Shown: positions 24,128 through 27,006 of the stretch, piece by piece
How positions within the stretch are numbered: position 1 is the stretch's first letter
Layout: the number at the start of each line of letters is the position of its first letter
Assembly (NCBI GenBank): GCA_026414805.1
Contig: JAOAIH010000016.1
Location: 1-50,403, forward strand
Origin: Spirochaetota bacterium
GTDB taxonomy: Bacteria > Spirochaetota > UBA4802 > UB4802
DNA length: 50,403 nucleotides
Reading direction: 5' to 3'
Program-made: the position numbers and the translations under genes
Notes under the pieces: generated by a model
Seen by the model: only the letters and a program-made list of their open reading frames with translations
The model's database searches: none
What the model was told of the DNA's origin: nothing

Positions 24128-24607
24128 TTATTTTAGTATCTTGGGTGGTGGTCCCCAGTAGAATTTGAGGCAATGGATGCCTTTTTCTCTATAAAAATCA
24201 AAAGTATATGACCTGTTTTCATAATAACGCGGAAGATTAAATGGATAGTTATCGGTATTAATTTCTTTTAATCGCTTCTTGAAGTATTCAAAAAATTCAA
24301 CAAGTACATTATCCACACAAAAAGCAATAATATTGGCAACTGACATCTTCCATAGCTTCTTTACATCTAAAAAAAACTCATATTCTGAATGGTACAATAC
24401 CAAATGCACTCTCTTCCAAGGCTCATCTTGCTTACGTTTTCGGTATGCTATGCGTTTAAAAGCCATATATTGCTTTTTTTCTTTTTTGGCTGCATACATC
24501 ACCATATATACTATAAACGATCGTAATGGAAGCGATAGTTTTTTAGAATAGGAATGCAGAATAGCTAAATGCTGAAATGAAATACAGGTTGTAGTTTCAC
24601 AATCCAT
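24128..24607 (-). CDS. Hypothetical protein, 159 residues
   Basis: I do not recognise this protein. It begins with an ordinary cytoplasmic-looking segment and is rich in lysine, tyrosine and phenylalanine. The middle, VHLVLYHSEYEFFLDVKKLW followed by KMSVANIIAFCVDNVLVEFF, could be a strand-helix-helix unit of the kind found in ribbon-helix-helix proteins, and the tail is aromatic. The start follows a strong GGAGGAA, and a good promoter lies upstream (24642-24669), so I take it as real. It is divergent from the TetR gene at 24763, which might also control it. Confidence 0.7.
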   Translation of the reverse strand: MDCETTTCISFQHLAILHSYSKKLSLPLRSFIVYMVMYAAKKEKKQYMAFKRIAYRKRKQDEPWKRVHLVLYHSEYEFFLDVKKLWKMSVANIIAFCVDNVLVEFFEYFKKRLKEINTDNYPFNLPRYYENRSYTFDFYREKGIHCLKFYWGPPPKILK

Positions 24608-24669: not shown

Positions 24670-24762
24670 TACAATAAATCAGGAATATCTTTTAAAGCAT
24701 AACTGGTCAACGATTATAATATTATCTTGACATACAAATGAATACACGCACACTATACGAGT

Positions 24763-25353
24763 ATGAAAAATGCAAAGTCTTTTCAACAGTTAAAAGAATC
24801 TGAAAAGGAAAACAGGAAAAAAATTATCATTGATGCAGCAGAACGCGTGTTTGCATCAAAACCATTTAATCAGGTAACAATGCGTGATATTGCCAAGGAA
24901 GCAGGCATTACCCCCGGAGCAATTTACCGGCATTTCCCTGACCAGCAGTCGCTTTTTGTCGAAGCTTTTTTACGAGGAGCAGAAAAAATAATTAAGGAGT
25001 TAGAACAGATTATATCAAAGAGCAAAAATCCATTAAAAGATGCTATCGCCATATTTTTAAAATTTTTAATGAAAAATGACCAGTATTTCAGGATGATGAC
25101 GCATTTTATGCTTGATGCCCAGTTGAGCCTGGACCTGGTTGAAAAGCTCAATGACGCTGAGCGGAAGTTGCTTGACCAGTTTACTAAATTATTTAACAAA
25201 AAGCCAAATCCACGGTTACATGCACATAGCCTCTTTGCTGCACTAAACGGCATAGTTATTACATTTCACAATTATCCTGGCAGAAGTAAGAAAGATATTC
25301 ACCAGCACATGAATCGCCTTGGTGATATGCTGTATCAGCTATTTTCTAAGTGA
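24763..25353 (+). CDS. TetR/AcrR-family regulator, probable acyl-CoA dehydrogenase repressor
   Basis: A 196-residue regulator. The DNA-binding domain is at about 18-65, with VTMRDIAKEAGITPGAIYRH and FPDQQSLFVEAFLRGAEK, and a helical ligand domain follows. Its 3' end overlaps the convergent acyl-CoA dehydrogenase gene by 15 bp. Two 15-bp palindromes at that gene's promoter (26955-26988) are of a type TetR dimers bind, so this protein is the first candidate to bind them, likely released by a fatty acyl-CoA. No matching palindrome was seen at its own promoter. The ribosome site before 24763 is poor. Confidence 0.9.
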   Translation: MKNAKSFQQLKESEKENRKKIIIDAAERVFASKPFNQVTMRDIAKEAGITPGAIYRHFPDQQSLFVEAFLRGAEKIIKELEQIISKSKNPLKDAIAIFLKFLMKNDQYFRMMTHFMLDAQLSLDLVEKLNDAERKLLDQFTKLFNKKPNPRLHAHSLFAALNGIVITFHNYPGRSKKDIHQHMNRLGDMLYQLFSK

Positions 25354-26940
25354 TGTTAACTCCTGTGCATGTTCTACTTCATGCAATGCACAATTCTGGA
25401 ATTCATGTAAAAGGTCATGACACGCATTTTCCCATAGAAGACAGAACTTGGCATTGTCCTGCCCGGGATAGATAAAATTGCTCTGCACACATTCAGAAAA
25501 TAACGCTGCAATTTTGTTCACTAGACTGGTTTCTGCATTGTACAGAATGTCTTTAATAAATTCATTCACAGGATACCATGTCGATGCCCGCTGAATGTCA
25601 CGGTAAATTTGCGTTAAGAGTACATTGCGTGGACCTTCCCATAATTCGTTGATCATCATATCTCGAAAAAGACGAGGCAGGCTTGAAAAATCTTCCATAA
25701 CACCATGTCCACCAAATACTGATATTGCCTTTCGCAACACATCAGTTGCGTCCCACGAAGCCACAATTTTTTGTAACATAATGAGTATTCTAACGCAAAA
25801 GCGCTTTCGTTGTATTTCTACATCTTCATCAGTTATCAATCCGCCTCGCAATCCACCAGGCAAGGATTGGAATAGTTCATAGATTTTGAATGCACCAGCA
25901 AGTGTACGCTTTGCATAATGATTTAATTCTTCAAGTTGACGCTTGAGCAGTGGGAACTGATTGATAGCAAATCCAAATGCAGTGCGAAATTGTGCATACT
26001 GTGTTGCTTCTCGTGCAGCGCGTATCATAGCCGCTGCAGCAGATAATCCCACTGTTAATCGGGAATGTGTGAGCACTATCCCCACCACATTTGCAATGCC
26101 TCGTTCAATTGGCCCTACTTTATAGGCGATAGCTCCATTGAATGTAATCTCTGCTGTGGGAAGTTCTGCGGTACCAAGTTTCCATTTGAGTCTGTCGATA
26201 GTATATCCATTGCGTTTTTGAAGATTTTTATCAATATATGATGGCATGACAAACAAACCAACATGCTCTGAACCTTTGGGACGGGCAGTAATAACAACAT
26301 AATCAGCATGTGTGGCCGAACAGAAAAACTTTTTACCGTAAAGGAGCCAGTGGTCACCATTTTCTACTGCTTCTACATCGTTGGCAGCAACATCCGAACC
26401 ACCCTGTATCTCGGATAGGTATTGAGCACCAATACCAAAATTGCCATTGATACCTTCTTTGCAATGTACCAGGATTTTTTCAAGTTCCGGATGGTCATGG
26501 TATTGCTCAAGTAGCGCAACCAATCCTTCAGTACACACGAGTGGACATGCAATACCAGCTTCACCATTTTGATAAATCAATATTTGTTTTACAAGGCGTT
26601 CCCATGGTAAAGTTTTTGAAGAAAATATCCCTTGGCCAAAAACTTCTTTTTCCATTTCTTCTAGTGCCGTTGGGCGTATGATACGGTCAATACGGTGGTT
26701 GTGACCATCATAGTGCTGCATAAAAATCCTGTTATGGGGTTGAGCAATCTCATCAGCTATATCACGCCAACGGTATGAGGCTAATCTGGATAGCTCCCTT
26801 GTACGGATATCAACTGTTTCAAAATCATCTTTTGAAAAGTACCTGGTTACCTTTTGCAAAAAAAGGTCATCAGCGTAATAGTCTATATTATTTCTCCATT
26901 GCAGGTATTCATCAAAGCTGTAGGATGTATTTTTTGCCAT
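25339..26940 (-). CDS. AidB-like acyl-CoA dehydrogenase
   Basis: A 533-residue flavoprotein of the acyl-CoA dehydrogenase superfamily, longer than standard beta-oxidation dehydrogenases (about 380) and close to the AidB-like group (about 540). It has YLSEIQGGSDVAAN, the FAD and substrate region KKFFCSATHADYVVITARPK, FGFAINQFPLLKRQL, and the C-terminal FGGHGVMEDFSSLPRLFRDM and ELWEGPRNVLLTQIYRD, where the family glutamate lies. The start follows AGGAGGG. It is preceded by an unusually clear regulated promoter. It likely oxidises a fatty or branched acyl-CoA; the exact substrate is unknown. One AGCTATCG copy lies at 26127. Confidence 0.92.
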   Translation of the reverse strand: MAKNTSYSFDEYLQWRNNIDYYADDLFLQKVTRYFSKDDFETVDIRTRELSRLASYRWRDIADEIAQPHNRIFMQHYDGHNHRIDRIIRPTALEEMEKEVFGQGIFSSKTLPWERLVKQILIYQNGEAGIACPLVCTEGLVALLEQYHDHPELEKILVHCKEGINGNFGIGAQYLSEIQGGSDVAANDVEAVENGDHWLLYGKKFFCSATHADYVVITARPKGSEHVGLFVMPSYIDKNLQKRNGYTIDRLKWKLGTAELPTAEITFNGAIAYKVGPIERGIANVVGIVLTHSRLTVGLSAAAAMIRAAREATQYAQFRTAFGFAINQFPLLKRQLEELNHYAKRTLAGAFKIYELFQSLPGGLRGGLITDEDVEIQRKRFCVRILIMLQKIVASWDATDVLRKAISVFGGHGVMEDFSSLPRLFRDMMINELWEGPRNVLLTQIYRDIQRASTWYPVNEFIKDILYNAETSLVNKIAALFSECVQSNFIYPGQDNAKFCLLWENACHDLLHEFQNCALHEVEHAQELTSLRK

Positions 26941-26954
26941 AATCCCTCCTTATA

Positions 26955-27006
26955 GTAAACAATATTTACGCAAGTAAACCATATTTACTTTAAAATATTT
27001 TGTCAA
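26955..27006 (-). promoter_or_regulatory. Promoter with two tandem 15-bp palindromic operators
   Basis: The plus strand shows GTAAACAATATTTAC (26955-26969) and GTAAACCATATTTAC (26974-26988), each an inverted repeat GTAAA-N5-TTTAC, with centres 19 bp apart. On the minus strand TTGACA (27001-27006), a 17-bp spacer and TATGGT (26978-26983) form the acyl-CoA dehydrogenase promoter. The second operator covers the -10 box and the first lies over the transcription start. This is a textbook arrangement for repression, probably by a TetR or FadR-type protein. Confidence 0.82.

Follow-up and report, generated by a model that had tools for sequence, protein, structure and literature searches.

The window, i.e. 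the whole 50,403-nt stretch of DNA analysed in this study, carries on its minus strand (25339-26940) a gene for an acyl-CoA dehydrogenase (ACAD) of 533 amino acids, which profile matches assign to the AidB/ACDH-11/Bd2924 type. The middle and C-terminal ACAD domains (PF02770 and PF00441) were found above cut-off, and Glu435, within LWEGPRNVLL, corresponds in the alignment to the WEG-motif Glu of ACADs with solved structures. By profile, the nearest solved relatives were 6sd8, which we take to be Bd2924, 4y9j, 5ez3, and 3djl, with ACDH-11 of C. elegans, Bd2924 of Bdellovibrio, and AidB as the closest structures; the protein missed the AidB/isovaleryl-CoA dehydrogenase equivalog cut-off (NF008594, 93.7 bits vs 545). 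A protein search returned close relatives in uncultured Spirochaetota. In contrast to ACDH-11, Bd2924, and AidB, the subfamily was found in one uncultured order only, being present in 25 of the 393 genomes of the phylum that were searched.

A TetR-family regulator of 196 amino acids, the proposed binder of the operators described below, is encoded on the plus strand at 24763-25353. The initial annotation placed this gene convergently past the end of the ACAD gene, and the ORF coordinates agree, the two 3' ends overlapping by 15 bp (25339-25353). The protein has an N-terminal TetR_N helix-turn-helix (PF00440, E 7.6e-18) with the recognition helix ITPGAIYRHF at residues 49-58, and its AF2 model (pLDDT 88.7, pTM 0.80) predicts an all-helical TetR fold with a large C-terminal ligand domain. 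The model matched the best TetR structures with TM 0.71-0.75, and BkaR and the complex of Bacillus FadR with stearoyl-CoA stood at the top of the fold ranking, a ranking that discriminates weakly among TetR proteins, whose E-values differ by no more than one or two orders of magnitude. The curated NCBIfam cut-off for FadR was missed (NF053878, 44.4 bits vs 200). In all five genomes of the window's genus, the TetR gene has TTGACA 35-36 nt ahead of its ATG (in the window, a -35-like hexamer at 24727-24732, plus strand, 36 nt before the ATG) and no Shine-Dalgarno sequence; the TetR mRNA is probably leaderless. The ACAD gene has the Shine-Dalgarno sequence AAGGAGG (26945-26951, minus strand, by inspection). 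No copy of the operator was found at the TetR gene's own promoter in this genus, which thus gives no sign of autoregulation. A 159-aa ORF at 24128-24607 had no Pfam or NCBIfam match; a similar protein of 180 amino acids is encoded at L014:11805-12347.

Upstream of the ACAD gene lie two 15-bp palindromes without mismatches, GTAAACAATATTTAC at 26955-26969 and GTAAACCATATTTAC at 26974-26988, at the coordinates and with the 19-bp start-to-start spacing given in the initial annotation. Its reading of the promoter also held: on the minus strand, TTGACA (27006-27001) is followed after a 17-bp spacer by TATGGT (26983-26978), and the upstream palindrome covers this -10 hexamer. The two hexamers score 10/12, in a promoter scan that overall did not rise above shuffles. 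In the transcribed orientation (minus strand), the promoter-proximal operator O1 (26974-26988) reads GTAAATATGGTTTAC and is kept in relatives, and O2 (26955-26969), 19 bp further downstream, reads GTAAATATTGTTTAC. O2 starts just past the transcription start deduced from the promoter sequence (approximately 26971), spanning approximately +2 to +16 of the predicted transcript, with its end 14 bp short of the ATG (26940). An RNA family search of the region found none. Sites over the -10 hexamer and +1 are what a polymerase-blocking repressor would need.

The counts of single palindromes are the one observation in favour of regarding them as chance products of AT-rich promoter DNA. The palindrome GTAAANNNNNTTTAC was not enriched in the window (42 matches at no more than two mismatches vs 48 expected), and 11 exact sites were present genome-wide, compared with 32 for a reversed-pattern control. 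Eight of the other nine exact copies fell within ORFs; exact single sites elsewhere in the genome were either inside ORFs or intergenic without an adjoining lipid gene. TAAACNNNGTTTA alone, with fewer matches than the reversed control, was likewise uninformative for genome scans here, the genomes being AT-rich. The exact pair, however, matched once in 3.24 Mb, and the sole other match at three or fewer mismatches had three. From the control rate of 32 per 3.24 Mb, we estimate that pairs at exactly 19-bp pitch would arise by chance about 3e-4 times per genome. Frequent occurrence of the motif at unrelated sites had been named as a point against the operator, and with stray single matches mostly in genes and a unique pair, the claim stands. 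The pitch, position, and symmetric substitutions of the pair are furthermore conserved over many genomes, which already contradicts chance, and we consider that explanation extremely improbable.

A relaxed paired pattern found the pair in each of the five genomes of the genus, with an extra match in the window's own genome only; this further match (C4:43822) is intergenic with poor half-sites and was taken as chance. The lipid control suggested by the initial annotation holds in part: the ACAD promoter carries the pair, but no other lipid gene in the genome does, pointing to a local one-target circuit instead of broad lipid control. As judged from these matches, the regulon in the window's genome appears to be the ACAD gene alone.

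The pair precedes the ACAD gene or a ligase-ACAD operon in five of five genomes of the window's genus, lying approximately 110-220 bp from the ATG in two of them. In one (L014), the pair has symmetric substitutions, TGAAC/GTTCA replacing TAAAC/GTTTA, and the gene behind it encodes an AMP-ligase and lies ahead of the ACAD gene in an apparent operon. That gene (L014:4373-5950), encoding an AMP-binding acyl-CoA ligase, holds the operator-bearing promoter. Among the 25 genomes with the ACAD, the TetR gene adjoins it in 14, convergently in 11 (families f1, f4, and f7) and divergently in three (f6). In each of the 14, a palindrome follows closely on TTGAC at the promoter of the ACAD gene or operon; a second site at 19 bp is recognisable in nearly all and clear in most of them, being weak in members of f6. 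In 19 promoters, the distance from the start of TTGAC to the first site is 7-19 bp. Eleven ACADs have no TetR gene beside them: five of these have the motif, along with a related TetR encoded at another place in the genome, and the other six are without the motif. Two genomes, G023 and G024, have TAAAC sites though the TetR gene is unlinked or 8 kb away, the TetR match in G023 being distant. A palindrome test independent of the motif gave a peak at 19 bp in the TetR-adjacent group, and no such peak in the six ACADs lacking both a nearby TetR and the motif. Per-locus shuffle p-values for the pair were weak in several loci, and single loci were often not significant alone; the weight thus rests on the comparison across genomes.

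The half-site varies by lineage: the window's genus has TAAAC and TGAAC, some members of f6 have CGAAC, and f4 and f7 have TAACC. The recognition helix of the TetR protein varies alongside it (ITAGAIYRYF/ITPGAIYRHF, ..SSIYTYF, and ISHA.IYRYF). Residue 51 (window numbering) sorted the half-sites in 37 of 37 TetR-site pairs, assigned by us from proximity or presence in the same genome: His or Lys goes with ACC and other residues with AAC. The helix ..SSIYTYF pairs with [CT]GAA.. sites; among the SSIYT proteins, that of L144 alone has a site with an outer T and not C. In L161, where Lys occurs at residue 51, Lys and SSIYT are found with a CGACC site, combining both rules. Helix and site types follow the TetR clades in the tree, indicating few independent changes; at the level of clades (about nine), our own arithmetic gives p values of approximately 0.03 for the split by residue 51 and 0.008 for the pairing of SS with CG.

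The presence of the palindrome in genomes lacking the regulator, raised in the initial annotation as evidence against the assignment, was examined for the TAACC type, chosen for its low background, by searching for TWACCANTGGTWA in 18 genomes of f4 and f7. It occurred at 16 places in nine genomes with an ISHA- or ITHA-type TetR and in none of the eight scanned genomes where no such TetR was found; the eighteenth genome (G027) has an ISHA/ITHA-type TetR and only a degenerate pair. For this type, the assignment stands. Furthermore, G036 encodes an ISHA-type TetR and lacks an orthologue of the ACAD; here, a 19-bp TAACC pair is found at the TTGACA promoter of another ACAD gene, at a distance of 4 kb from the TetR gene. 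Single TAACC-type sites were also noted before a GGDEF gene (L088) and, in G032, at L110:1501, with a cupin-like/SDR gene pair on one side and another TetR gene on the other.

These comparisons bear on whether another regulator, either a TetR paralogue or an unrelated dimeric repressor, binds the pair, the neighbouring TetR having a different target. In favour of this, the TetR gene is convergent and not divergent, an arrangement from which the genome-context rule gives no target (PMC3511530); the site is missing from the TetR gene's own promoter; and TAAAC sites are also used by paralogous TetRs with different helices. Against this, the TetR-ACAD linkage persists across families that differ in orientation, site variants track the recognition helix of the neighbouring TetR, and the scanned genomes without an ISHA-type TetR have no matching sites; we therefore regard binding by another regulator as improbable. 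Going by these sequence comparisons, the palindromes over the ACAD promoter are very probably the binding site of the neighbouring TetR repressor. The regulator, operator, and target set put forward in the initial annotation is supported by the double site in all five genomes of the genus, the TetR linkage in 14 genomes across orientations, and the covariation of site and helix. Although the divergent-neighbour rule would not predict the target of this convergent TetR gene, it can be assigned by covariation.

Considering these results, we propose, with high confidence, that the TetR protein encoded at 24763-25353 represses the ACAD gene by occupying 26955-26988 as two dimers, and that a fatty acyl-CoA probably releases it. 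One dimer would bind each 15-bp palindrome, and the bound protein would block the -10 and start region of the ACAD gene. Dimers 19 bp apart could touch each other or cooperate. The releasing molecule is probably a fatty acyl-CoA, either a substrate or a product of the ACAD, a guess from fold resemblance; under this proposal, the ACAD would be made when its substrate is present. Resemblance of the modelled fold to FadR and BkaR makes acyl-CoA a reasonable inducer. Alternatively, the TetR protein may bind the pair but have as its ligand a different CoA thioester, a free fatty acid, or some signal unrelated to these, or its binding may activate transcription. The ligand pockets of TetR proteins diverge quickly, and some TetR proteins, such as AtrA, are activators (PMC3511530). 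The sites, however, cover the -10 hexamer and +1, the usual position for a repressor, the targets of the subfamily are acyl-CoA enzymes, and the best fold matches are BkaR and the acyl-CoA-binding FadR. A different ligand or an activating role is thus the less likely course, though one to be taken seriously, and we favour repression relieved by acyl-CoA.

The regulator is of a known kind, that of FadR-like TetR proteins, and what is distinctive here is an unusually strict operator pitch together with a natural series of specificities. Predicted operators lie at promoters of acyl-CoA metabolism genes, namely the ACAD gene here and ACAD and acyl-CoA synthetase genes for the relatives and paralogues, and on these predictions we infer that the protein works like a FadR-type regulator though it falls outside the FadR equivalog. 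Its best fold matches also included the FadR proteins of Bacillus subtilis and B. halodurans, one of these structures being the stearoyl-CoA complex 3whc; they share about 20% identity with it, and the operator sequence of Bacillus FadR differs from the pair described here. AtuR is a TetR repressor with two 13-bp repeats at one promoter. Two palindromic sites at one promoter are also found for TetR/tetO and PA3973 of P. aeruginosa (PMC9736018), with an edge-to-edge gap of 11 bp in both compared with 4 bp (19-bp pitch) here. Mycobacterial BkaR (Rv2506, Fad35R), the top fold match, is a TetR repressor of acyl-CoA/keto-acid genes that likewise has two palindromic copies in one intergenic region; unlike the system described here, it has a 16-bp core, GTTA(N)T(N4)A(N)TAAC, with an even centre and is divergent and autoregulatory (PMC3920632). 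The TetR-family FadR of Thermus thermophilus controls beta-oxidation genes including acyl-CoA dehydrogenases through a 15-bp pseudopalindrome, TTRNACYNRGTNYAA (PMC5597230). At the level of operator geometry, the sites described here share with it a length of 15 bp, an odd centre, and the core ACnnnGT, examples being GTAAACANTGTTTAC and TAACCANTGGTTA. The consensus published for Thermus is, in contrast, a single site, and the available part of that report makes no mention of a fixed-pitch tandem array (PMC5597230). A literature search joining TetR, acyl-CoA dehydrogenase, Spirochaetes, and operator found no paper.

The pitch was strict across the sites compared. Beside TTGAC, 40 of 50 sites have a partner exactly 19 bp away and none has one at 18 or 20 bp, a partner being a match at 7 or more of 10 positions and both members of a pair being counted in some promoters; for each of the other offsets between 13 and 36, at most four of the 50 had a partner. 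In some promoters, there seem to be three sites. Within the order, 19-bp-paired sites associated with paralogues precede acyl-CoA synthetase and ACAD genes. The synthetases include one of the CoA-binding/ATP-grasp type, and one paralogue, accompanied by an operator-type site, is divergent from tandem ACADs of approximately 570-610 amino acids. Paralogue sites were also found before a metallo-beta-lactamase-fold gene and before an AMP-ligase gene. As far as these predicted sites indicate, any broader control of acyl-CoA metabolism appears to be exerted only via paralogous TetRs in related genomes.

We suggest, with slightly less than even confidence, that one TetR subfamily has multiplied in this uncultured order of Spirochaetota, its paralogues dividing acyl-CoA metabolism between them and being kept distinct by a small recognition code, in which residue 51 would read A or C in the half-site and the SSIYT helix the outer CG. 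The rigid 19-bp tandem pitch would, in the same proposal, be kept because neighbouring dimers contact each other on the DNA. The regulator, operator, and target set described above is a concrete one for an uncultured bacterial lineage, and its natural sequence variants are a ready data set on how TetR proteins change DNA specificity without cross-talk.

At five loci (L162, L166, L168, L170, and L190), a TetR gene whose product has the helix ISPGSIYTYF/ISPGAIYTYF is divergent from a metallo-beta-lactamase-fold gene, and several of these loci have what appear to be three sites at 19-bp steps. Two f7 genomes (L185 and L186, at approximately 1500) have an additional TAAAC pair at 19 bp, located before a second gene similar to the acyl-CoA synthetase genes of the paralogous TetRs.
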